Assembly (NCBI GenBank): GCA_028712095.1
Contig: JAQTQU010000011.1
Span: 1-33,851, forward strand
Length of the DNA: 33,851 nucleotides
DNA from: Candidatus Peribacteraceae bacterium
GTDB taxonomy: Bacteria > Patescibacteriota > Gracilibacteria > Peribacterales > Peribacteraceae
Direction: 5' to 3'
Shown: piece by piece, positions 18,035-33,851 of the stretch
Layout of the letters: each line of letters opens with the position of its first letter
How positions within the stretch are numbered: position 1 is the first letter of the stretch
The notes under the pieces: generated by a model
Told to the model about the DNA's origin: nothing
Seen by the model: only the letters and a program-made list of their open reading frames with translations
Database searches by the model: none
Program-made: the position numbers and the translations under genes

Positions 18035-18790
18035 TCATTTCGCCACGAACGCTGTAGCACCCAGCCAGGCGAGGTCGAACACAGCGCGCATGGTTCGTGC
18101 AAGTGTTGCGCTCTCGATGAGCAATCCGAGTAGCTCTTCTTTCTTAAGCGATACGATGCCGACCACGTTTTCGAAGATGAGCACTTCGTTTTCGAACGGG
18201 AACTGCTCTTTGTTCACCAGAAGGATTTCGATGAGATTCGGATCGAATGTTTTGGGAAGAAAAGGGTCAATGACGTGCACACTCTCGACGGTATTGGGCG
18301 AGAGGTACCGGGTCTTGATACCTTTCCTGAGTCGCGTGTGCGTGTACTCCTTAAAGAAATCGGGGAAGAAGTTCGTGACGGTTTTGAGATTTGTGTAGCC
18401 GAGAATTTCTTTCTTGGCGATCAGAGATTCCGTAAACACGCGTTCCACGCCCTCGCGTCCTTCGTAAAACCGGATCTTCGGCTTGAAGCCGAGGCTGCCG
18501 GTGAGTGACTTGAGTTGGGGGAGGAGACTCTTGGCAATTTTCACTCGTTCCAGTTCGAGCTCTTCCAATTTCTCCGGTGGTTCCGGCGCGAAGCACTTCA
18601 TTCCGCTTTTGTCGTACTGACTCAAGAGGCGTCGCTTGAGGAGTTTCTCAAGCGTGTGGTAGCAGCTTACGCGGTTGATGCCTGCTTTTCGGGCGATGAC
18701 GGAGACCGCTCCGCCGTTCACTTCGAGGCAGGCGAGGTAGACTTTGGCTTCTTCATCGGTAAGGCCGAGTTTCAGGAGATCGGTTAGCAT
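18035..18790 (-). CDS. TrmB-like transcriptional regulator
   Basis: LLKLGLTDEEAKVYLACLEVNGGAVSVIARKAGINRVSCYHTLEKLLKRRLL wHTH, followed by a PLD-like effector region. Confidence 0.8.
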   Translation of the reverse strand: MLTDLLKLGLTDEEAKVYLACLEVNGGAVSVIARKAGINRVSCYHTLEKLLKRRLLSQYDKSGMKCFAPEPPEKLEELELERVKIAKSLLPQLKSLTGSLGFKPKIRFYEGREGVERVFTESLIAKKEILGYTNLKTVTNFFPDFFKEYTHTRLRKGIKTRYLSPNTVESVHVIDPFLPKTFDPNLIEILLVNKEQFPFENEVLIFENVVGIVSLKKEELLGLLIESATLARTMRAVFDLAWLGATAFVAK

Positions 18791-19393: not shown

Positions 19394-21070
19394 ATGCCTG
19401 CCTGCAAGCACTGCTCATCGGCGTTCGCGGTGACGAAGGATGATCTGGCGATGCTCGATTCCTTAAGCCCGGTGATCGGAGGGCAGAAGCTCCCGATTCC
19501 TTCACCCACACTCTGCCCTGACTGCAGATTGCAACGCAGGCAAACGCACGTCAACCACGTCAACCTCTATGAGCGGAAGTGTGACCTCACGGGAGCGCAA
19601 ATCATTTCGAACATCCATCCCGCTTCGCCCTACAAAGTCTACGCACAGGAGGATTGGTACAGCGACAAGTGGGACCCGCATGACTATCAGAGGGAGTTTG
19701 ATTTCTCACGGCCGTTTTTCGGGCAGTGGAAAGAACTCTTTGATGTCGTACCCCGGCCCAATCTGATGACGGGCTACGAGTTCGATGAAAACTGCGACTA
19801 TACGAACTATGCCGGCAAGAATAAGGATTGCTATCTGATTTTTGATTCTGACCAAAACAGGGATTGCTATTACAGCTATAGCTGTAACCAGTGCGTGAAC
19901 TGCGTCGGGTGCTTCCGCGCGCGGAAATCGGAGCTCTGCTACGAGTGCATCGATTGTGTGAAATGTTACGGCTCGTCGTACCTGCAGGATTGCGACAATT
20001 GTTCGGAATCGATGTTCCTCAAGAACTGCACGGGCTGCAAAAAATGCCTGATGTGCAGCAACCTGAAAAACAAGGAGTACTACGTTTCGAACAATAAGGT
20101 CACCAAGGAGGAATTTGAGAAGTTTCGTGCCATGCTCGGAACCCATTCGGTCGTGGAATCCGCGCGCGAGCGTTTTGAGAAACTCAAGCTGGAGTTTCCG
20201 CAAAAGTTCATGCACGGCGTGCAGAATGAAAACGTCGTGGGTGACTATCTGGTGCATTGCAAGAACGCGTACCACTGCTTCGACAGTGAAGATCTCTGGG
20301 ATTGCCGCTATGTCTACCAGGGGTTCATGCCGCTGAAAGACTGCATGGACATTCACGAGTGCGGCGAAGCCGAAAGGCTCTACGAATGTTCGGTCGCGGG
20401 GTACGAGTTGCACAGCTGTTTGTTCTGCAATCACACGCTCGCGAGCATGAGTGACATGATCTACTGCCAATTGTGTCACCATTCAAGACACTGTTTTGGT
20501 TGTGTGGGTCTGCGGCGCAAGAAGTACTGCATCCTCAATAAGCAATACACGAAAGAGGAGTACGAGGCACTCGTCCCGAAGATCATTGAACACATGCGGA
20601 AGACCGGAGAATGGGGCGAATTCTTTCCAACCGAGACGTCGTGTTTTGCCTACAACGAGACTCTGGCTCAGGATTACTTTCCGCTCACGAAAAAAGAGGT
20701 TCTGGCGCGCGGCTGGCGGTGGTTCGATGACGTAGAAAGGAAGGACCAGTACCTCGGCCCCAAGGTCGAACTGCCGGATAGCATCGACGATGTCACCGAT
20801 GACATCTGCAAGAAAATACTGACCTGCGCCGAGAGCGGCAGGCAGTATAAGATTATTCCGCAGGAACTCAAATTTCACAGACAGTTGCACGTGCCGCTGC
20901 CCCGGACCAGTTTTTTCACGCGGTACCGCAAGCAGCTTCAGATGCGTAATAAGCGCATCCTCTACGAACGCACGTGTGGCGCATGCGGCGTTCCGATTCA
21001 AACCAGCTACGCACCGGATCGCCCCGAGAAGGTGTACTGCGAATCTTGTTATCTTGCTTCTGTGTATTGA
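19394..21070 (+). CDS. Cysteine-rich multi-zinc-ribbon protein, array copy 1
   Basis: MPACKHCSSAF...LCPDCRLQRR...CYYSYSCNQCVNCVGC...CILNKQYTKEEYEALVPKII...YCESCYLASVY*; ATG at 19394 aligns with the other copies. Confidence 0.85.
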   Translation: MPACKHCSSAFAVTKDDLAMLDSLSPVIGGQKLPIPSPTLCPDCRLQRRQTHVNHVNLYERKCDLTGAQIISNIHPASPYKVYAQEDWYSDKWDPHDYQREFDFSRPFFGQWKELFDVVPRPNLMTGYEFDENCDYTNYAGKNKDCYLIFDSDQNRDCYYSYSCNQCVNCVGCFRARKSELCYECIDCVKCYGSSYLQDCDNCSESMFLKNCTGCKKCLMCSNLKNKEYYVSNNKVTKEEFEKFRAMLGTHSVVESARERFEKLKLEFPQKFMHGVQNENVVGDYLVHCKNAYHCFDSEDLWDCRYVYQGFMPLKDCMDIHECGEAERLYECSVAGYELHSCLFCNHTLASMSDMIYCQLCHHSRHCFGCVGLRRKKYCILNKQYTKEEYEALVPKIIEHMRKTGEWGEFFPTETSCFAYNETLAQDYFPLTKKEVLARGWRWFDDVERKDQYLGPKVELPDSIDDVTDDICKKILTCAESGRQYKIIPQELKFHRQLHVPLPRTSFFTRYRKQLQMRNKRILYERTCGACGVPIQTSYAPDRPEKVYCESCYLASVY

Positions 21071-21105: not shown

Positions 21106-21182
21106 GATTCGCCCTGACCCTTCGGCAAGCTCAGGGTCACTCTGAGCAGAGTCGAAGATTGAGCGCAGCGCAGCGGAGTCGA
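21106..21182. repeat. Dispersed palindromic repeat cluster downstream of copy 1
   Basis: CGCCCTGACCCTTCGGCAAGCTCAGGGTCACTCTGAGCAGAGTCGAAG...GGAGTCGAA. Confidence 0.7.
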
Positions 21183-21218
21183 ATGGGTGAAGAGTGTTAC
21201 CTTTCCGCTGTCTACTAG
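21183..21218 (+). other. Mini-ORF/tail duplicate 1: MGEECYLSAVY*
   Basis: ATGGGTGAAGAGTGTTACCTTTCCGCTGTCTACTAG; resembles the ESCYLASVY* terminus of copy 1. Confidence 0.7.
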
Positions 21219-21469
21219 CGCATGCCAACGGATTTCTTCAGCTTCGGGATCTGGCTCACCTCGATGTCATCGAGACGATGGTCGAGTCCTTCAATTTGGG
21301 AGGAGAGATCGACGTACACGCGTTCCACTTTGTTTTCCATGCGATCCATGCGGACCGTCAGATCATTCCTTACAATGTCGATACGTTGCGTGAGTCTCTT
21401 TTCCATCCCACGCATGTGGTCCAAAAGAACCGCAGCGGTTACGCCGGTGCGGGGAGATCTCTTTGCCAT
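21215..21469 (-). CDS. Small coiled-coil protein A
   Basis: MAKRSPRTGVTAAVLLDHMRGMEKRLTQRIDIVRNDLTVRMDRMENKVERVYVDLSSQIEGLDHRLDDIEVSQIPKLKKSVGMR; paralogue at 30022. Confidence 0.75.
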   Translation of the reverse strand: MAKRSPRTGVTAAVLLDHMRGMEKRLTQRIDIVRNDLTVRMDRMENKVERVYVDLSSQIEGLDHRLDDIEVSQIPKLKKSVGMR

Positions 21470-21600: not shown

Positions 21601-23265
21601 ATGGGTAGAACGTGTGCCCACTGCGGCATGACATTCGCTCTTCTTCCAAAGGAGCAGGAACTTTACCGAACGTTGGATGTACCGGCTCCCGTGGAGTGCC
21701 CCGCCTGCCGCCGCCAGCGGCGTCTCATGTTCCGTAACTTTTTTCACCTCTACCACCGCACCTGCGATCTGACGGGCAAGAAGATCATCTCGATGTACGA
21801 CAAGGACTCCGAGTCCCCCGTCTATGAGCTCCATGAGTGGTGGGGTGACAAGTGGGATGGATTGACCTATGGGATAGATATGGATTTCTCCAGTCCATTC
21901 TTTGCACAGGTGGCCAAGCTCCATCGGACCGTCCCGCGAATGTCCGTGATGAATACGAATTGCGAGAATTGCGATTACTGCAATATGTCATTCGGGAGCA
22001 ACGATTGTTATCTTGTCTTCGGCAATGTCGGGAACGAAGACTGCTCCTACGGCCATATCGTCTGGCACTCGAAAGACTGTTATGACTGCCTCTACACCTA
22101 TCGGTCGGAATTCTGTTACGAGTGTATCGATTGCGTGCAGTGTCACTCACTCTCCTTCTCACGAGACTGCGACAATTGTTCTGCCTCCATGTTCCTTGTG
22201 CACTGCACGGGCTGCCACGATTGCTTCGGGTGCGTGGGCCTTCATGACAAGCAGTATCACATCTTCAACGTTCCTCATACGAAAGAGGAGTATCGGCAGA
22301 AACTCTCTTCACTCAATACCGGCAACGTGCAAACGATTGCAATGGCAAAGGAACGAGTAAAAGCGCTCATCGGAAAGGAGATCGTGAAGTACTACCACGG
22401 TTTCAATTGCGAAAACGTCATCGGCGATTATCTCTACAATTGCAAAAATATCGTCGAAGGCTATGACCTAAAGAACTGCGAGGACTGCCTCTACGGCGCG
22501 ACGCTCGAGAGTTTCAAAGACAGCGCTGACTGTAATTTCTCCGGACTGATCGCAGGGGCGCAGGCAGAACTCTGTTATCAATGTCTTACCATCGGAAGCA
22601 GTGTGCGGCTCCTTGGATGCCACTGCTGCCAGCAAAACAATGCTGATTTGTTCTACTGCGATAATTGCTATTCCTGCAAGGATTGCTTCGGTTGCGTGGG
22701 ACTCAAACAGAAACGCTACTGCATCCTCAATAAGCAGTACACGAAGGAGGAATATGAGTCGCTTCTCCCCAAATTCGTCTCACACATGAAAAGCATTGGC
22801 GAATGGGGACAATTCTTCCCCCGAGATCTCTCTCCTTTCGGTTACAACGAAACGATGGCACAGGAGTACTTCCCGATGGCAAAGGAGCAGGTACTCAAGA
22901 AAGGGTGGAAGTGGAAGGAGGAGCCGGAGGACGAGGAGAGGAGTTACCTCGGGCCGCCCGTTGCCATTCCCGAAGACATCAAAGACGCCGATGATCCCAT
23001 CTGCTCCGCAATCCTCCGCTGCGAAGTGACGGGCAAACTCTTCAAGATCATTCCCCAGGAATTCCAGTTCTACCGTACTATGAAACTCCCTCTGCCGCGG
23101 AAATGTTTCGTGCAGAGACTGAGAGAGCGCTTCGCACTACGAAATCCCCGCACTCTCTGGAATCGCACATGCCAAAAGTGCAAGAAAGCGATCGAGACGA
23201 CGTATGCGCCCGAGCGGCCCGAAATCGTCTATTGTGAAAATTGCTATCTGAAAGAAGTTTACTGA
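21601..23265 (+). CDS. Cysteine-rich multi-zinc-ribbon protein, array copy 2
   Basis: MGRTCAHCGMTFALL...CPACRRQRR...CDLTGKKIISMY...ETTYAPERPEIVYCENCYLKEVY*. Confidence 0.88.
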   Translation: MGRTCAHCGMTFALLPKEQELYRTLDVPAPVECPACRRQRRLMFRNFFHLYHRTCDLTGKKIISMYDKDSESPVYELHEWWGDKWDGLTYGIDMDFSSPFFAQVAKLHRTVPRMSVMNTNCENCDYCNMSFGSNDCYLVFGNVGNEDCSYGHIVWHSKDCYDCLYTYRSEFCYECIDCVQCHSLSFSRDCDNCSASMFLVHCTGCHDCFGCVGLHDKQYHIFNVPHTKEEYRQKLSSLNTGNVQTIAMAKERVKALIGKEIVKYYHGFNCENVIGDYLYNCKNIVEGYDLKNCEDCLYGATLESFKDSADCNFSGLIAGAQAELCYQCLTIGSSVRLLGCHCCQQNNADLFYCDNCYSCKDCFGCVGLKQKRYCILNKQYTKEEYESLLPKFVSHMKSIGEWGQFFPRDLSPFGYNETMAQEYFPMAKEQVLKKGWKWKEEPEDEERSYLGPPVAIPEDIKDADDPICSAILRCEVTGKLFKIIPQEFQFYRTMKLPLPRKCFVQRLRERFALRNPRTLWNRTCQKCKKAIETTYAPERPEIVYCENCYLKEVY

Positions 23266-23274
23266 GCAATTTTC

Positions 23275-23333
23275 ACCCTGCCTGCCCGTCCGTAGCCCGA
23301 AGGGCGAAGGCGGGAGCGAGGGAAGCGAGTCGA
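23275..23333. repeat. Dispersed repeat downstream of copy 2
   Basis: CACCCTGCCTGCCCGTCCGTAGCCCGAAGGGCGAAGGCGGGAGCGAGGGAAGCGAGTCGA. Confidence 0.65.
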
Positions 23334-23369
23334 ATGGGCGAGGAATGTTATTTGAAGGAAGTGTATTAG
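23334..23369 (+). other. Mini-ORF/tail duplicate 2: MGEECYLKEVY*
   Basis: ATGGGCGAGGAATGTTATTTGAAGGAAGTGTATTAG. Confidence 0.7.
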
Positions 23370-23443
23370 CGAGTATGTAGTATTCAGTATGCGGTATGAG
23401 GGGTTTGCTGAATACTGCATACTGATTCCTGTATACTTCGCAG

Positions 23444-25138
23444 GTGCAGAAGACCTGCGCCGAATGCGGCACGTCCTTCGAGATTGCTGATGCTGATCAG
23501 GTGCTCTTAGATCACGTTGCCCCTGCGTTTGGCGGCAAGCGTGAAACCATACCCCCCGCCACGCTCTGTCCCACTTGTCGCGAGATTCGTCGCTATGCTT
23601 GGCGTAATGAGTGGAGCCTGCACCGACGCATGTGCAGTCGCACAGGCAAGGAAATGATTTCCATGTATCGGCCGGATGCCCCGTTTCCCGTTTACGACAA
23701 CGCGATCTGGTGGAGCGACGATTGGGATGCGAAGGAATACGGAAAAGTCATAGATTTCTCACGTCCATTTCTTGCACAGTTTCTTGCACTTGTTCGCGCG
23801 GTTCCGAAGATGGCGCGTATTCAGCAGGGCGAAAATATCAATGCGCAGTATACGAATTGCGCATCGTACAACAAGAATTGTTATCTTCTGTTCTCTTCGA
23901 ATAATAATGAGGACTGCCAGTATGGAACACACATTCACTACTGCAAGAGTTGCATTGATGGCTACCATGTGCACCGCTGTGAACTGTGTGCGCACTGCGT
24001 CAACTGCACAGATTGCTATGCTCTTATCGATGGTCGTGATTGTGTCAACTGCGCATCGAGTTGGTTCCTTAAGAGTTGCAGCGGATGTCACGATTGTATC
24101 GGATGCGTCAACCTGTACCAGAAACAGCATTGCGTCTTCAATGAGCAATTAACGAAGGAAGCTTATGAGAACAGGAAGCAAACATTGCTCCGCGGCGAGT
24201 ATTCAGCTTTTGAAGATCTCCGTAAGCGCTGGAAGACGTTCATCATTGGGTTTCCACGCCGTTCCTACGAAGGTGTGCAGAACCAGAATGTCACGGGGAA
24301 CTACGTATCCCGGAGCAAGAATGCGTTTCAGTGCTATGACTGCGAAGACCTTGAAGACTGCAGTCGCTGTTGTCGGTGTTTGAATCTCAAAGACTGCAGT
24401 GATATCAGCAACTATGGCGGCATCGGAACGAATGAGCTGTGCTACGAATGTGAAGGCATCGGTCACGGTGTCGTGCGTGTTTGCTTCTCCAAATTGATCT
24501 GGGGAGGTTGCAGTGACATTTTCTACGGCTACGAATGTTTCGCCAGTCATCATCTCTTTGGCTGTGCAGGGCTCAAGCACGCACAGTATTGCATTCTGAA
24601 CAAGCAGTATTCGGAAGAAGAGTACAACCACTTAGTGCCGAAGATCATTGAGCGGATGCGGAGGGACGGAGAGTGGGGGGAATTCTTTCCTGCGCAGGAA
24701 TCGCCGATCGGGTACAACGAGAGTATTGCCCAAGACCTCTATCCGCTCTCGAAAGAGAAAATCTTGAAGCGTGGATTCCGTTTCAGCGAGCGAAGCGATG
24801 ATGTATCGGCAGCCAAAAACGCACTCCCCGCGCATCAGCTTCCGGATGGTATCGATGCCGCTTCGGATGATTTTCTCCGCTCTCTAATTATCTGTGCGAT
24901 CAGTGATCGTCAATTCCTTCTCACAAAGAGGGAACTTGAGATGTACCGTATGCTGCGCCTTCCACTTCCGCGGCTGCATCCCGACGAGCGTCACCGACTG
25001 CGTATGTCATACCTTAATCCGCACCGACTCTGGAATCGTCCGTGTGCCAAGTGTAAGAAGTCCATCGAGACCACGTACGCGCCTGAGCGGCCGGAAATCG
25101 TCTATTGCGAAGAGTGTTATTTGAAGGAGGTATATTGA
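23444..25138 (+). CDS. Cysteine-rich multi-zinc-ribbon protein, array copy 3 (GTG start)
   Basis: VQKTCAECGTSFEIADADQVLLDHVAPAFGGKRETIPPATLCPTCREIRR...ETTYAPERPEIVYCEECYLKEVY*; TATACT 6 nt before GTG. Confidence 0.88.
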   Translation: MQKTCAECGTSFEIADADQVLLDHVAPAFGGKRETIPPATLCPTCREIRRYAWRNEWSLHRRMCSRTGKEMISMYRPDAPFPVYDNAIWWSDDWDAKEYGKVIDFSRPFLAQFLALVRAVPKMARIQQGENINAQYTNCASYNKNCYLLFSSNNNEDCQYGTHIHYCKSCIDGYHVHRCELCAHCVNCTDCYALIDGRDCVNCASSWFLKSCSGCHDCIGCVNLYQKQHCVFNEQLTKEAYENRKQTLLRGEYSAFEDLRKRWKTFIIGFPRRSYEGVQNQNVTGNYVSRSKNAFQCYDCEDLEDCSRCCRCLNLKDCSDISNYGGIGTNELCYECEGIGHGVVRVCFSKLIWGGCSDIFYGYECFASHHLFGCAGLKHAQYCILNKQYSEEEYNHLVPKIIERMRRDGEWGEFFPAQESPIGYNESIAQDLYPLSKEKILKRGFRFSERSDDVSAAKNALPAHQLPDGIDAASDDFLRSLIICAISDRQFLLTKRELEMYRMLRLPLPRLHPDERHRLRMSYLNPHRLWNRPCAKCKKSIETTYAPERPEIVYCEECYLKEVY

Positions 25139-25793: not shown

Positions 25794-27460
25794 ATGTCAG
25801 GCACCTGCGCCGAATGCGGAACACCCTTCGAGATCACAGCAGACGATCAGAAGTTTTTGGATGATTTCGCCGTTCCCGCGCCCAAATCGTGCCCCGAATG
25901 CCGGCTCACGCGGCGCATGATCGAGCGAAACGCCCGCCGACTCTACTGGCGCACGTCCGACGCCACAGGCAAACGTATTCTCTCCCAGTACCATGCCGAC
26001 CACCCGTTTCCGGTTTACACGCCGGAGGAATGGTGGAGCGACCGCTGGGACGGACTCACGTTCGGCCGTGCCATCGATTTCGCGCGTCCGTTCTTTCAGC
26101 AGTTTCTGGAACTCAAGAACGTCGTGCCGCACCAGGCGCGTTTTCTGATTCAGGACACGATCGAAAACAGCGATTACGTGAACTGCGCCGGTTTCCTCAA
26201 GAATTGCTATCTGTCTTTTGAAGTGGATTACAACGAGGACTGTTACTACAGCAATCGCGTCTACCACTGCAAGAATATGGTCGATTGCAGTAACTGTTAC
26301 GAGAGCGAAATTTGCTACGAGAGTCTCGACTGTACCGGCTGCCACAGCGTCTTCTATTCGCAAGATTGTCAGAATTGTTCCGGAAGCTCTTTCCTGAAGA
26401 ACTGCATCGGCTGCCGTGACTGCATTGGTTGCATCAACCAGCGGCAGAAGCAACATATGATCCTGAACGAACAATATTCCAAAGAGGAATTCACGAAGCA
26501 CAGGGCGGCGCTGCATCTGGATACAACGGATGGCATCAGATCCTTTCTTAAGAAGGCAGAAGAGTTTTTCTCGGGTCAGCCCCGGCGCTACGCGCAGACG
26601 GAGCGAAACGAACACTGCACAGGGGATCATCTCTACGATTCCAAGAATGCGTTCTCGTGCATGGACTGCAAGGACTTGGAGGACTGCCGGTACTGCGCCA
26701 AGGTGGCGAGGGCGTGAAATCCTGCATGGACTACAACTCCTGGGGCGACAAAGCGGAGCGTCTGTACCAATGTTCGGCGTGCGGGAACAACGCCTTTAAC
26801 CTGAAATTCTGCACGACGTGTGCCACGAATAATGCCGATCTCACGTACTGCGACAGTTGCGTCGGATGCCACGATTGTTTCGGATGCGTGGGTTTGAAGA
26901 AGCGGCAGTATTGCATCCTCAATAAGCAGTACACGGAAGAGGAATTTGGGAAATTGCGCGCCCAGCTCATTGCGCACATGCAGAAATCCGGTGAGTGGGG
27001 CGAGTACTTTCCCAAAGAGGTCTGCCCCTTCGCATTCAATGAGACGATTGCGATGGAATACTTCCCAATCGGAAAAGAGGAGGCGATTCGTCGTGGCTAC
27101 AAATGGCGCGATGAGGTGGATGAGCCGCTCGACGTTGAGAAGGTGATTCCTGCTGCCGCGCTTCCCGATACGATTGCAGAGATTCCCGATGATGTGCTCA
27201 ATTGGGCAATTACTTCACAGAAGACCAAGCGTCCTTTTCGTATCACCAAACAGGAGTTGGAGTTCTACAGAACACACTCTCTGCCTCTGCCGCACCTGCA
27301 TCCCGAAGAGCGGCATGAAGACCGCTTAAAGAGGCGCCCGCCGCGCCGTCTCTGGGAGCGGACCTGCGCCAAGTGCGGGAAAGAAGTGGAGTCCACGTTC
27401 CAACCTTCGAGGCCGGAGATCGTGTACTGTGAATCGTGTTATCTGAAAGAAGTGTACTGA
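25794..27460 (+). pseudogene. Cysteine-rich multi-zinc-ribbon protein, array copy 4, split by a frameshift
   Basis: Frame of 25794..26717 covers the N-terminal half and ends ...DLEDCRYCAKVARA*; the frame of 26657..27460 continues the family from about GGEGVKSCMDYNSWG to YCESCYLKEVY*. A one-nt loss around 26699-26717 would explain it. Confidence 0.75.
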
Positions 27461-28255: not shown

Positions 28256-29962
28256 ATGTCTGGTTCGACTCCGCTCACCACAGGCAAGACCTGCCCCGTC
28301 ACCGGCCGCACGTTCACGGTTTCGCCTGCCGAGATGGAACTTCGAAAGAAGCTCGGTGTCGAAGGAGAGCCTCTGATCCATCCCATTGCGCGCTGGCAGG
28401 TTCTCGGTGCCTTCTGGCAGCACTGGGCGCTCCACAAGAGGAAGTGCGACAAGACCGGAAAACAAATCATTTCCGTCTTCTCCGAGGACTGTCCTTACCC
28501 CGTATGGCACAAAGACGAGTGGATCAGGCATGCCGATCCTCCCTCTGCTGAACCTGATCTTTCAAAACCGCTCTTCCCGCAGATATGGGAGTTTTTTCAG
28601 CGTTGCCCCATTGCACACAATTTGGGGGCGGGAAACGAAAATTGCGAATACACGGATGACTGGTGGTACTCCCGAAACTGTTACCTCAGTCACTCCGGCG
28701 TCGAGGATGAGGATCTACACTACTGTTTCCGTGTTTTGCGCGTGAAAGATTCCCAGTTTGCGGTCTTTTCGTTCGATTCACAGCGATGCCTCGATATCAC
28801 ATTCTCCCATTTCTGTTCCCGGACAATCTTTGCCCTGCACAGTAGGCAGTGCAGTGATAGTGCTTTTCTCTATGACTGCCGCAACTGTCAGCATTGCATG
28901 TTCTGCTCGAATCTTCGCAATAAATCGTATTGTTTTGCCAATCAGCAGCTTACTAAAGATGCGTACGAGAAGCGCGCAGTGGCTTGGGACTTCCGGTCTC
29001 GTGCTGTCTATGAGCAAGCTAAGCAGGAATTAAAAAAAATGCTTCAGAAGAACGCTTGGCATCGTGCCCTCTTGATTGACCTTTCGGAGGATACGACGGG
29101 CAACTACCTTGATGAGTGTAGGAAATGTATCAATTGCTTCTTCACGACAACGAATGTTGAGGATTGCATCAACTGCTTTCGTGGTGGTGTGAATTCCAAA
29201 GATTGCTTGGATTGCGTGAATTTCTACGAAGACGATCTGGTGTATTACAGCTCATCGGCTCTGGACAAATGTTACGATGTTCGTTTTGGCTATGGCCTTA
29301 TCCAATGCAAGTATACGGAATACTGTGCGCAGTGTTTTCAGTGCCAGCACTGTTTCGGGTGTTGCGGACTGGTGGGAAAGAAGTATCACATTTTCAACAA
29401 GCCATACGAGCCGGCCGAGTATGAGCAGAAGAAGGCAGAGGTCGTCGCAGCCATGAAGAAGACAGGGGAGTATGGGCAGTTCTTCCCTGCGCACTTTGCA
29501 GCAAATCCCTATGAAGAGAGCCTTGCCGGTTTTCACTGGCCGCTCACGACGGAGCAGGGCAAGAAGATGGGGTTTCGAATGCGCGAAAGAGAGGAAGAGC
29601 GTGAAGCGGAGGCTGTTGACTCCTCGCAGGTTCCCGATCGCTGCGATCAGGCTGACCCGCCCGTTCCGACCGACGGTCAGGCGGGTGAATCCATAACGAA
29701 GTCACCGTTCTGGGATGCGGCTGCCAAGCGGCCGTTCCAGATTCTCAAGGAGGACATCGCCTTTGCGCAGGATCTTAAAATCCCACTCCCGTACACCTAC
29801 TACATGCGGCGGCTGCAGGAGAATTTCCGCCTCATTCCCTTTGATGGCGAACTGCGGACAACGATTTGCGGCAAGTGCCAGAAGCAGGCACAGACAAGTT
29901 GGCCGAAGGAATACGATGGCAGGATTTTGTGCGAATCCTGCTACCTTAAAGAAGTATACTGA
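28256..29962 (+). CDS. Divergent cysteine-rich multi-zinc-ribbon protein, array copy 5
   Basis: MSGSTPLTTGKTCPVTGRTFTVSP...CDKTGKQIISVFSEDCPYPVW...CFGCCGLVGKKYHIFNKP...ILCESCYLKEVY*; start 2 nt after NYN stop. Confidence 0.85.
   Translation: MSGSTPLTTGKTCPVTGRTFTVSPAEMELRKKLGVEGEPLIHPIARWQVLGAFWQHWALHKRKCDKTGKQIISVFSEDCPYPVWHKDEWIRHADPPSAEPDLSKPLFPQIWEFFQRCPIAHNLGAGNENCEYTDDWWYSRNCYLSHSGVEDEDLHYCFRVLRVKDSQFAVFSFDSQRCLDITFSHFCSRTIFALHSRQCSDSAFLYDCRNCQHCMFCSNLRNKSYCFANQQLTKDAYEKRAVAWDFRSRAVYEQAKQELKKMLQKNAWHRALLIDLSEDTTGNYLDECRKCINCFFTTTNVEDCINCFRGGVNSKDCLDCVNFYEDDLVYYSSSALDKCYDVRFGYGLIQCKYTEYCAQCFQCQHCFGCCGLVGKKYHIFNKPYEPAEYEQKKAEVVAAMKKTGEYGQFFPAHFAANPYEESLAGFHWPLTTEQGKKMGFRMREREEEREAEAVDSSQVPDRCDQADPPVPTDGQAGESITKSPFWDAAAKRPFQILKEDIAFAQDLKIPLPYTYYMRRLQENFRLIPFDGELRTTICGKCQKQAQTSWPKEYDGRILCESCYLKEVY
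29652..29690. repeat. Short palindromic repeat inserted in frame in copy 5
   Basis: ACCCGCC (29655-29661) / GGCGGGT (29680-29686); encodes the low-conservation segment DPPVPTDGQAGE. Confidence 0.55.
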
Positions 29963-29969
29963 AACAGGA

Positions 29970-29997
29970 TTCGCCCTGAGCGAAGTCGAATGGGCGA
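29970..29997. repeat. Palindromic TTCGCCCTGAGCGAAGTCGAATGGGCGA element
   Basis: TCGCCC/GGGCGA arms; same family as 4391-4428. Confidence 0.7.
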
Positions 29998-30025
29998 GGA
30001 GTGCTATTTGAAAGAAGTTTACTAG
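29990..30025 (+). other. Mini-ORF/tail duplicate 3: MGEECYLKEVY*
   Basis: ATGGGCGAGGAGTGCTATTTGAAAGAAGTTTACTAG. Confidence 0.7.
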
Positions 30026-30396
30026 CGTATGCCCACTATCCTCTTCAGTTTTGGCACCTGCACCACTTCGAGATCATCCAGCCGCTTATCGATATTTCCC
30101 ACGCTCACCTTGATCCATGCGATGTCGTTCTCCATGCGGTCCATCCGTGAGGTTAGGCGGCTATCCACTTTTGTCAGGTCTGCGCGGATGCCGCCGATTT
30201 CCCGCATCAGGCGCTGTTCCATGCCGCGCATGTGGTCTAAGAAGACAGCAGGGGTGATGCCACGGTCGTCCGTGGACGACGTGGCGCGGCCGGTACGGGT
30301 AGATTTCCTGACTATGGGCGGCAAGCGTAGCAGAGGGGTGGAGGCCGGTGATAGCCCCGCAGAAATATTTTGGGTAGACAAGACACTTTTCCGCAT
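30022..30396 (-). CDS. Small coiled-coil protein B, paralogue of 21215..21469 (start uncertain; conserved part begins near 30324)
   Basis: ...RKSTRTGRATSSTDDRGITPAVFLDHMRGMEQRLMREIGGIRADLTKVDSRLTSRMDRMENDIAWIKVSVGNIDKRLDDLEVVQVPKLKRIVGIR*. Confidence 0.65.
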   Translation of the reverse strand: MRKSVLSTQNISAGLSPASTPLLRLPPIVRKSTRTGRATSSTDDRGITPAVFLDHMRGMEQRLMREIGGIRADLTKVDSRLTSRMDRMENDIAWIKVSVGNIDKRLDDLEVVQVPKLKRIVGIR

Positions 30397-30423
30397 CGCG
30401 GAGCCATATTTTCCGTTCCATGT

Positions 30424-32133
30424 ATGAGCGGAACAAGCACACATCCTGACACCGGCCCGCGTATCTGCAGAAACCCCTGGTGCAAGCAACCTTTCGAGGT
30501 CACGCAAAGTGATCTCGCCCTCTTAGACGAGCTTTCTCCCGCATACGGAGGCAGGAAGTATCCGATTCCTCCTCCTCTGCTCTGCCCCGATTGCAGGCAG
30601 CAGCGTCGGCTCGCATGGCGCAACGAGCGTCAGCTCTACCGGGATACCTGCGACCGGTGCGGCACGTCCATCGTGTCCATGTACGCTCCGGATTCTCCGT
30701 ACTTCGTCTACTGCTATGACTGCTGGTGGGGCGACAAATGGGATGCGATGCAGTATGGGATGGATATTGATTTCACGCGGCCGTTCCTCGCGCAACTCCA
30801 GGACCTGCGCCTGCGCGTGCCGCGGCTCTACCTCTTCAACCTGCATAGCGAGAATTGCATCTACACAAGCCATTCTGCGAACAACAAGAACTGCTACATG
30901 GGCGTGGCGCTCGGCAAGTGCGAGGATTGCTACTACGGTCACTGGGTGCTGGAGAGCAAGAACGTGGTGGATTCGATGTACAGCGAATACTGCGAGCGAT
31001 GTTACGAATGTTCGTACTGTTTGCACTGCTTCGGGACGTCGTTCTCCCAATCCTGTCAGAACTGCCGCGACTGCCTCTTCTGCTACGAGTGCAAGGGATG
31101 CGAGCGGTGCATCGGCTGTGTGGGGCTTCGACAGAAAGAGCTCCATATCTTCAATCAGCCCGTTTCGGCGCAGGAGTATGCGCGCGTGAAAGAAGAGCTC
31201 CTCACTTCACCACAGACGTTCGCCGCTTTCACTGAGAAGTGGCGTGCGTTCAAGCGCACATTCCCGCACCGTTTTGCGCTTCAGATCAACTGCACCAACG
31301 TGTCCGGCGATGATTTGTATAACTGCAAGAACGTGAAGCAGTGCTTCAACGGCCGTGACGTGGAGGACAGCGCGTACATTTATGATTCGGGCAAAAACAA
31401 GGACTCGATGGACACCTATGAGCATGGCTGGCTGGTGCAGAGCCAGCTCAACTACGAATTGCACGGGGGGATGGCGGGCTATCGTCTCCTCTTCTGCCAC
31501 ATCTGTGCGGAGGGAAGGGATCTGCTCTATAGCGACTGCTGTCATAACAACTCCGCGGATCTCTTCGGCTGTGTTAGTCTCAAACACCAGCGTTACTGCA
31601 TTCTGAACAAGCAGTACACGAAGGAGGAGTACGAGCAGTTGGTCCCGAGGATCATCGAAGGGATGCAGAAGGACAGAACATGGGGTGAGTTCCTCCCTGC
31701 CGCACTCTCGCCGTTCGCTTACAACGAATCCGTCGCGCAGGAATATTTCCCTCTCACAAAAGATGAAATCATCAAGCGCAAATGGCGATGGAAGGCGCTG
31801 GAGGAGAAAGCATTCTCTCTCAAAATGTCCGTCATTCCTCCGGACATCCGGGGCGTGACGGACGATATCCTGCGCCAGACCCTTGCCTGCGCGACATGCG
31901 GAAAACAGTTCAAAATCATCCCTCAGGAATTGCGCTTCTATCGGGAGATGCTTCTGCCGGTTCCCTTATCCTGCCACGATTGCCGACATCATCGCCGCAT
32001 GGCGCTTCGCAATCCACGCCATCTCTGGTCCCGCCAGTGCGCGAAGTGCGGGAAGGGGATCGAAACTACCTATGCTCCCGACCGGCCGGAGCAGATCTAT
32101 TGCGAGGAGTGCTACCTGAAGGAGGTGTACTGA
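30424..32133 (+). CDS. Cysteine-rich multi-zinc-ribbon protein, array copy 6 (most complete set of zinc ligands)
   Basis: CRNPWCKQPFEV...CPDCRQQRRLAWRNERQLYRDTCDRCGTSIVSMYAPDSPYFVYCYDCWW ... CATCGKQFKIIPQEL...CHDCRHHRRMALRNPRHLWSRQCAKCGKGIETTYAPDRPEQIYCEECYLKEVY*. Confidence 0.9.
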   Translation: MSGTSTHPDTGPRICRNPWCKQPFEVTQSDLALLDELSPAYGGRKYPIPPPLLCPDCRQQRRLAWRNERQLYRDTCDRCGTSIVSMYAPDSPYFVYCYDCWWGDKWDAMQYGMDIDFTRPFLAQLQDLRLRVPRLYLFNLHSENCIYTSHSANNKNCYMGVALGKCEDCYYGHWVLESKNVVDSMYSEYCERCYECSYCLHCFGTSFSQSCQNCRDCLFCYECKGCERCIGCVGLRQKELHIFNQPVSAQEYARVKEELLTSPQTFAAFTEKWRAFKRTFPHRFALQINCTNVSGDDLYNCKNVKQCFNGRDVEDSAYIYDSGKNKDSMDTYEHGWLVQSQLNYELHGGMAGYRLLFCHICAEGRDLLYSDCCHNNSADLFGCVSLKHQRYCILNKQYTKEEYEQLVPRIIEGMQKDRTWGEFLPAALSPFAYNESVAQEYFPLTKDEIIKRKWRWKALEEKAFSLKMSVIPPDIRGVTDDILRQTLACATCGKQFKIIPQELRFYREMLLPVPLSCHDCRHHRRMALRNPRHLWSRQCAKCGKGIETTYAPDRPEQIYCEECYLKEVY

Positions 32134-32176: not shown

Positions 32177-32977
32177 ATGCGTCAGAAGATCGAGCACACT
32201 CTTCGGCTGGCTGGTCTGCGTGAGGAGGAGGTCAAAATGTACCTCCACCTGCTTATGCTCAAGCGTGCCTCGATGGCCGAGCTGATTGCAGAAACGGGCC
32301 TCAATGTAATGACAGCCTACCGTACGATGAAACGCCTGCAGGAGCGCGGTCTTGTGCAGTCGTTTGATATCAACCAGAAGCAGTCGGTCTATGCACCCCT
32401 CTCGCTCGGGGCTCTGATCCAGACTCTGGGGGCCGAAGAGAGATCGATTCGTCGGCTGCAGCTTGCACTCAAAGATCTCGATCGATTTCTCCCTTTCATT
32501 GGCACAGGAGAACAGACAGGCGATCGGTCAGAAGAGCAGGAGCCCATAATGATCCGCCAGGGGCTCGATGCGTTCCGCGAAGAGTATTTAAGGCTTCCCG
32601 ATCTATGCAACGATGAATTTCTCTGTATGGGTTCCATGCAGAATTATTGGGATGTTGCCGGAATGTCCGACGAAGCGCCTGAGGAGCTGGCATTTCGTCA
32701 CAATCGCTTTAAGCGCGGCATGTTCTGTCGCGTCTTCAACACGCATTCGCCCGAAGCAGAGACCTTTGCAAAACGTGATTCCAAAGAACTGCGCACTACG
32801 CGCCTTGTTGATTGCATTCCCGTTGCCAAAGATTATCTCGGATACGCCAAAGATCATGTGAGGCATTTCATCTGCGACAAGGATCACCCGCGTGTGATCA
32901 TCATCCGTCATCCGGAACTCGTTGCGCTCTACCGTGATCAGTTCGAGCGCATGTGGCAAGCAGGGGTCGGAGCCTGA
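32177..32977 (+). CDS. TrmB-like transcriptional regulator
   Basis: LRLAGLREEEVKMYLHLLMLKRASMAELIAETGLNVMTAYRTMKRLQERGLVQSF wHTH plus a C-terminal effector region. Confidence 0.8.
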   Translation: MRQKIEHTLRLAGLREEEVKMYLHLLMLKRASMAELIAETGLNVMTAYRTMKRLQERGLVQSFDINQKQSVYAPLSLGALIQTLGAEERSIRRLQLALKDLDRFLPFIGTGEQTGDRSEEQEPIMIRQGLDAFREEYLRLPDLCNDEFLCMGSMQNYWDVAGMSDEAPEELAFRHNRFKRGMFCRVFNTHSPEAETFAKRDSKELRTTRLVDCIPVAKDYLGYAKDHVRHFICDKDHPRVIIIRHPELVALYRDQFERMWQAGVGA

Positions 32978-33092: not shown

Positions 33093-33851
33093 ATGGCATT
33101 CCGTTGCAGACAGTGTTCGGCGGTATTCGAGGTCACCCCCGCTGATCTCGCGTTCCTCGACAAGCTCTCTCCTGTGTTCCATGGCAAGAAGTACGCCCTT
33201 CCGCCTCCCGCGCTCTGCCCCGGCTGCCGGCAGCAGCGTCGGCTCCTGTGGCGCAACGAGCGCGCTCTGTACCGGAGGACGTGTGATCTCTGCAAAAAGT
33301 CGATCATTTCCATGTACTCTTCGGGTTCCGCGTTCCCCGTCTACTGCACGGAGTGCTGGTGGTCGGACCAGTGGCATCCCAGTGATTTCGGTCGCGACGT
33401 CGATTTCGACCGGCCGTTCCTCACGCAAATCAAGGAATTGCAGAACAGCGTTCCGCGTCTGGCACTCAATGTCATCAATAACGAGAATTCCGACTTCATC
33501 AATCACTCCGGCTCCAACAAGAACTGCTACCTGATCTTTGCCGCGGAGTTCAATGAAGATTGTCTGTATGGCTACCAGGTGATCAAGTCCACCGGCTGTA
33601 CCGACACCTGCGACTGCACCGAGTCGGAGTACTGCTATGAGGTGATTGATGTGGATAAGTGCCACTCGCTGCTCTTCTCGCAAAACTGCACGAACTGTTC
33701 CTCATCCGCTTTCCTGTTTGACTGTAAAGGATGCACAGATTGTCTGCTCTCGACAAATCTGCGTAACAAGCACTACGTCGTCCGTAACAAGCAGTATTCC
33801 AAAGAGGAGTATCTCCGCTTAAAACAGGAGGTGACGGATACGATTGCGAAA
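33093..33851 (+). CDS. Cysteine-rich multi-zinc-ribbon protein, array copy 7 (truncated by window end; absent from the ORF track)
   Basis: MAFRCRQCSAVFEVTPADLAFLDKLSPVFHGKKYALPPPALCPGCRQQRRLLWRNERALYRRTCDLCKKSIISMYSSGSAFPVYCTECWWSDQW...NKNCYLIFAAEFNEDCLYGY...NKHYVVRNKQYSKEEY; open through 33851. Confidence 0.88.
   Translation, partial: MAFRCRQCSAVFEVTPADLAFLDKLSPVFHGKKYALPPPALCPGCRQQRRLLWRNERALYRRTCDLCKKSIISMYSSGSAFPVYCTECWWSDQWHPSDFGRDVDFDRPFLTQIKELQNSVPRLALNVINNENSDFINHSGSNKNCYLIFAAEFNEDCLYGYQVIKSTGCTDTCDCTESEYCYEVIDVDKCHSLLFSQNCTNCSSSAFLFDCKGCTDCLLSTNLRNKHYVVRNKQYSKEEYLRLKQEVTDTIAK

Follow-up and report, generated by a model that had tools for sequence, protein, structure and literature searches.

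The window analyzed here, by which we mean the whole 33,851-nucleotide stretch of Candidatus Peribacteraceae DNA, carries seven members of one family of cysteine-rich proteins in tandem, together with two genes for TrmB-type HTH regulators. The architecture of each copy is almost certainly A-B-B'-A', in which A and A' are double treble-clef modules and B and B' are homologous halves of the center. Because the two end modules run in the same direction, the chain is bracketed and is not a true palindrome. The genes, and the parts of copy 6, are as follows.

18035..18790, minus strand: TrmB-type HTH regulator bounding the array on its left side (PF01978, 35.7 bits; cut-off, 25.6)
19394..21070, plus strand: copy 1, same A-B-B'-A' family, with degenerate inner fingers and a predicted fold like that of copy 6
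21601..23265, plus strand: copy 2, same A-B-B'-A' family as copy 6
23444..25138, plus strand: copy 3, same A-B-B'-A' family as copy 6
25794..27460, plus strand: copy 4, same family as copy 6, broken in two where a run of G near 26712 carries a frameshift
28256..29962, plus strand: copy 5, same family, the most divergent member (29% identity to copy 6)
30424..32133, plus strand: copy 6, complete gene, 569 aa, 42 cysteines (7.4%)
30457..30615, plus strand: N-terminal finger 1 of copy 6 (zf_Tbcl-like), residues 12-64, ligands C15, C20, C54 and C57
30634..30735, plus strand: N-terminal finger 2 (zf_Tbcl_2-like, CxxC-x17-CxxC), residues 71-104, ligands C76, C79, C97 and C100
30826..31257, plus strand: B1, residues 135-278, cysteines at multiples of 3 and rungs of ~12 residues, ending in the helix cap GCxGCxxLRxKxYxIxN
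31279..31671, plus strand: B2, residues 286-416, homologue of B1, ending in FGCxGLxxKxYCILNKQYTKEEY
31879..32013, plus strand: C-terminal finger 1 (zf_Tbcl), residues 486-530, ligands C489, C492, C517 and C520
32023..32130, plus strand: C-terminal finger 2 (zf_Tbcl_2, CxxC-x17-CxxC), residues 534-569, ligands C539, C542, C560 and C563, with the tail CYLKEVY
32177..32977, plus strand: TrmB-type HTH regulator immediately 3' of copy 6 (PF01978, 37.9 bits)
33093..33851, plus strand: copy 7, same family, cut by the end of the window, with N-terminal finger 2 intact

Copy 6 is under purifying selection, since its orthologues, which are 84-85% identical to it over the aligned length, give dN/dS values of ~0.09-0.12. 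The frameshift in copy 4 is either the mark of a pseudogene or an assembly error.

Homology and fold of the terminal modules

An earlier note on this DNA had matched a stretch at the N terminus of copy 6 (within 30466-30729) to one at the C terminus (within 31888-32133) and had concluded that copies of a single double-ribbon module enclose the protein on both sides. Both stretches lie where they were reported and align without gaps, with 23 of 49 positions identical; over the whole module, 30 of the 69 paired positions are identical. The Smith-Waterman score of the N-terminal against the C-terminal end is 157, compared to 35.4 ± 7.9 (maximum, 74) for 2000 shuffles in which all cysteines were held fixed.

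Profiles for the two ends (residues 12-104 and 486-569) were drawn from a family set of 254 complete members, 201 of them representatives, gathered from 123 sequences. Their profile-profile alignment, the check that the earlier note had named, gave a score of 149.9 (probability, 99.8%; E value, 2.9e-30), far above that of 100 column-permuted controls with the cysteine columns fixed (14.6 ± 3.7; maximum, 24.2). Profiles built from the 116 members without any intact inner finger still scored 121.2, with controls reaching at most 31.2. The match is thus independent of both copy 6 and cysteine composition, and we regard the homology of residues 12-104 and 486-569 of copy 6 as confirmed. Spurious matches are common among cysteine-rich sequences, so that convergence or composition might have been suspected, but every fixed-cysteine control fails by a wide margin and the other cysteine-rich parts of the same protein reach no more than 18.2 in the profile comparison; chance is ruled out by these controls, and convergence has a negligible claim. 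Recent copying between the ends of one protein is likewise ruled out, the N-C identity being 0.321 within a protein and 0.315 between proteins.

The pattern of cysteines and arginines said to be shared by the two ends is real in copy 6 and nearly unique to it, most paralogs being degenerate. A regular-expression search for the exact pattern found it twice in only 1 of the 254 family proteins and was for that reason uninformative. Six arginine or asparagine positions are conserved at both ends, i.e., R58/R521, R62/R525, R66/R529, N67/N530, R69/R532 and R74/R537.

The predicted folds of the two ends also agree. The AlphaFold2 model of copy 6, made from an alignment of 97 family members, has a mean pLDDT of 88.9 and a pTM of 0.90, and that of copy 1, with its degenerate inner fingers, has values of 87.2 and 0.89 and shows its two ends built from the same elements. 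Compared as secondary structure in register, in place of a superposition, the DSSP states of the copy 6 ends agree at 94% of positions when placed as in the profile alignment and at no more than 0.81 at any shift. With this agreement standing in for superposition, neither of the two refuting outcomes that the earlier note had named was seen. All four fingers of copy 6 have, in the model, their first cysteine pair on a strand turn and their second where a helix begins. This is the layout of a treble clef, with which Pfam concurs, so that the term “zinc ribbon” used previously for these fingers is wrong, and all four are predicted to be treble clefs.

The isolated C-terminal module of copy 6 passes the gathering cut-offs of PF13451 (zf_Tbcl; 25.6 bits, cut-off 24) and PF23477 (zf_Tbcl_2; 31.9 bits, cut-off 27). 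In copies 2 and 4, the N-terminal module also matches PF13451 above its cut-off (26.0 and 27.6 bits); for its counterpart from copy 6, taken in isolation, in which the finger has CxxxxC, no PF13451 match was reported, and its PF23477 score of 17.3 bits lies under the cut-off, so that we assign it to zf_Tbcl_2 because of its homology to the C-terminal module. Copy 6 scores 18.8 bits with TIGR04272, the CxxC-x17-CxxC domain model, short of the cut-off of 36, although the CxxC-x17-CxxC spacing itself is present in the sequence of both ends. The cysteines of C-terminal finger 2 are invariant in alignment A1 of the family. Judging from these ligands, we infer that members of the family would bind zinc.

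Small proteins with zf_Tbcl (PF13451) and zf_Tbcl_2 (PF23477) or TIGR04272 have the same finger order and ligand layout as the modules described here. They are, however, ~70-105 aa long and consist of one module without a cysteine-rich core or a second module, and in the present family, unlike in them, the inner finger often lacks zinc ligands. LIM domains, as in CRP, also place two zinc fingers in series, and the second finger of the copy 6 C-terminal module resembles a LIM second finger, but the match is limited to that one finger and falls below the Pfam cut-off (PF00412, 21.7 bits; gathering cut-off, 22.9), with an E value of 0.001 to LIM proteins in the PDB. For the full-length family proteins tested, no Pfam or NCBIfam model reaches its cut-off, finger matches being sub-threshold, and no paper on an A-B-B'-A' family was found in the mostly non-subscription literature searched. 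The fingers themselves are known; neither the bracketed arrangement A-B-B'-A' nor the family as such was met with in these sources.

The central halves and the history of the parts

The center repeats the theme of the ends. B1 and B2 align with an hhalign score of 206 and an E value of 6.8e-37 (residues 135-275 against 288-428), so by sequence comparison the two cysteine-rich halves are homologous and the middle is a duplication too. Core cysteines are spaced at 3, 6, 9 or 12 residues, with 2096 pairs at 3 and 1935 at 12, compared to 39-90 at spacings of 4, 5, 7 and 8. The copy 6 model places short strands every 6 residues, at a moderate pLDDT of ~63-84 over most rungs, and ends B1 and B2 in helices of their own (residues 249-278 and 400-416). 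The core is likely a 12-residue beta-helix, with which the cysteine spacing and the strand period agree. Core residues 156-224 resemble the Tenebrio antifreeze protein 1ezg, the one solved relative that sequence comparison gave, in having 12-residue repeats with cysteines at multiples of 3; the sequence match is weak and not significant (E value, 0.81), and Foldseek returned no match of 1ezg to the models. Foldseek likewise found no whole-fold relative, either in the PDB, searched with the models of copies 6 and 1, or among viral models, searched with one of the two.

The phage family phrog_15341 matches ~90 residues of the core, with E values of 1.1e-10 for copy 1 (window 19820-20090) and 3.8e-5 for copy 6, and the terminal modules are not seen in it. 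A tblastn search for the core in phage records gave no match; on the phage side there were a single short C-terminal match, to a record of a faecal phage, and a short edge of one viral contig. On these results we set aside a phage origin of the family as unlikely.

Both kinds of part also occur by themselves. Small two-finger proteins consisting of the A module alone are found in relatives and in the same genome as the window (G000:C3:1-205, a protein cut by a contig edge), and the profile of this stand-alone module matches the N-terminal and C-terminal ends with scores of 83 and 88 (controls, at most 29). B-B' proteins of ~300 aa without terminal fingers occur in two genomes (L164, L165 and L166). 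The domain grammar, with its forms A, B-B' and A-B-B'-A', is clear from these internal duplications and can consequently be tested piece by piece.

In an unrooted tree of the modules, the N-terminal modules form one clade (SH-aLRT, 100) and the stand-alone modules another, and a single clade of C-terminal modules is compatible with the data (p-AU, 0.93). From these clades, the N and C modules separated once, before the radiation of the family. The two are closer to each other than to the stand-alone form, a likeness suggesting that one of them arose as a copy of the other.

Two further kinds of relative were noted. One is a truncated copy (L168, G000:C67) in which the N-terminal module and part of B1 are joined to the C-terminal LKEVY tail. 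The other comprises RGG or Gly-Arg-rich proteins of relatives (L139-L142, L144 and L148) that carry two CxxC-x17-CxxC fingers, a combination hinting that fingers of this type bind RNA.

Zinc-site loss, distribution and TrmB neighbors

The earlier description of copy 6 as pseudo-symmetric is borne out as far as the homologous end modules are concerned; it does not extend to the zinc sites of the family, since all 16 ligands are present in only 19 of the 201 representatives, copy 6 among them. At each end, the four cysteines of the outermost finger are kept in ~95% of the representatives (individual ligands, 92-97% for N-terminal finger 1 and 95-97% for C-terminal finger 2). Of the inner fingers, N-terminal finger 2 keeps C79, C97 and C100 in 28%, and C-terminal finger 1 keeps C492, C517 and C520 in 24-44%, with the complete quartet in about a quarter. 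C79, C97 and C100 are always lost together among the 201 representatives, the first cysteine of that finger often remaining alone.

On a FastTree tree of the core alone, we counted at least 21 changes of state for N-terminal finger 2 and at least 32 for C-terminal finger 1; the counts are approximate, and gains are not told apart from losses on this tree. We take loss to be the likelier, the regain of four ligands being improbable, and the loss of inner-finger cysteines has been repeated and mostly all-or-none. In copy 1, from which both inner sites are gone, the same elements are predicted there with pLDDT values of ~90 or more. With the inner zinc sites lost, the predicted fold and the six symmetric Arg/Asn positions remain. 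Repeated all-or-none loss with the predicted fold kept amounts to a natural experiment, with replicates, on zinc-finger folds that do without metal, and, if the loss is truly parallel, to a natural series on how zinc fingers survive without zinc.

The genome of the window has ~14 places with family sequence, seven of them in the window. A match to the query was found in 27 of 39 relatives, some to the terminal module only, with up to 37 matches in one, and family copies range from 0 to ~37 per genome. Patescibacteria have very small genomes, and up to ~37 genes for one family are maintained despite this. Across the phylum, 23 of 287 genomes gave a strong match, mostly in the class of the window, with five outside it. 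The best 80 loci come from Peribacteria, Peregrinibacteria and a few other Patescibacteria; none of the 80 is clearly from outside Patescibacteria, some being labeled only 'bacterium'. The A-B-B'-A' family thus seems confined to Patescibacteria in the data searched.

Genes for TrmB-type HTH proteins are the commonest neighbors of the family, with 60 genes in 46 loci, some of which overlap. In five genomes, which are not independent because three belong to one genus, 14 of the 26 TrmB genes are no more than 5 kb away from a family copy, compared to 1.1 expected; family arrays there contain about half of the TrmB regulators of the genome. Some arrays have no TrmB gene. This linkage is the first lead on when the family genes are used. 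PADLOC gave no match for the family, and we set aside a defense system as its role on that result.

Functional readings

Cytosolic location is suggested by the reduced state expected of the CxxC fingers and by a hydropathy scan of copy 6, in which we found no hydrophobic, signal-like or membrane segment (highest 19-residue hydropathy, 0.85); the protein would stay in the cytosol. There the B-B' center would form an elongated, beta-helix-like rod, and the two arginine-rich ends would make the protein bivalent, able to bridge two sites, whether these lie on nucleic acid or an acidic partner. The N-terminal and C-terminal modules of copy 6 carry charges of +2.3 and +6.7 and the core one of -12; at either end, the 24-residue stretch that surrounds the helix of the first finger has ~+5. 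The inner fingers may dispense with zinc because packing against the core stabilizes them, while the exposed outer fingers would need it. Differing paralogs would display differing core surfaces, and the TrmB regulators, as ligand sensors, would switch among the paralogs.

Taken whole, the A-B-B'-A' architecture together with a cytosolic bivalent scaffold whose paralogs are switched by TrmB proteins is a reading that we advance tentatively, at slightly less than even odds. The part in which the arginine-rich ends bind nucleic acid or an acidic partner is possible rather than probable, though the likeliest of the functional readings; the conserved arginines may be structural. Treble clefs serve protein-protein contacts as well, and may do so here in view of the weak resemblance of one finger to LIM second fingers. 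The still more specific picture of a Patescibacteria-specific, TrmB-linked family that bridges nucleic acid or ribosomes and has lost its inner zinc in parallel is rather unlikely to hold in full.

About level with the bivalent scaffold, and no more than a fair contender itself, is the view that the modules are simply end caps, i.e., zinc-stabilized plugs that close off the open ends of the beta-helical core and keep it from aggregating edge to edge; the core surface would then carry the function, and the arginines would be structural. The modules do flank the core, the pTM of 0.90 suggests a rigid whole, and the predicted fold of the inner fingers persists without zinc, as that of packed caps should. 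Against such plugs, B1 and B2 already finish in their own helices; moreover, B-B' proteins without treble clefs exist, and the modules are found alone too.

The bivalent scaffold is ahead of a metal buffer, in which the cysteine-dense core would bind zinc or copper as metallothionein does and the fingers would be ordinary structural zinc sites. The 7.4% cysteine content favors such a role, as does the every-third-residue spacing, by which cysteines would stack in the 12-residue rung model, but the core cysteine positions vary among members (20-95%), and the recurrent neighbors are the TrmB-type HTH genes, with no metal regulator or transporter prominent among the commonest neighbor groups; we consider it improbable.

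Peribacteria have been described as rich in exported or extracellular cysteine-rich proteins (PMC4736985), and those of Candidatus Peribacter share with the present family their lineage, high cysteine content and occurrence in gene clusters (PMC4736985). Secreted or surface-attached proteins with disulfide-laddered beta-helices are nonetheless very unlikely here: N-terminal finger 1 has its first ligand already at residue 15, CxxC treble clefs require reduced cysteines, and the family proteins, at ~569 aa and with no export signal seen, differ from the Candidatus Peribacter proteins, which have a mean length of 1,655 aa and, in most cases, signal peptides and a prediction of export (PMC4736985). 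A slight point in favor of export is the weak likeness of the core to the beetle antifreeze beta-helix. That protein is secreted and disulfide-bonded and has no zinc fingers.

The intergenic DNA of the array has features of its own. Remnants of the 3' end of family genes lie at window positions 21177-21220, 23328-23371 and 29984-30027, ~40-150 nt past the stops of copies 1, 2 and 5; they encode SRMGEECYLKEVY or a close variant followed by a stop, and each of the three is preceded by the REP-like sequence AGTCGAATGGG. They resemble footprints left by recombination among the array genes. Two of them are adjoined by a pair of related small minus-strand ORFs between array genes (21215-21469 and 30022-30507), whose products (VLLDHMRGMEKRL...) are likely coiled-coil.
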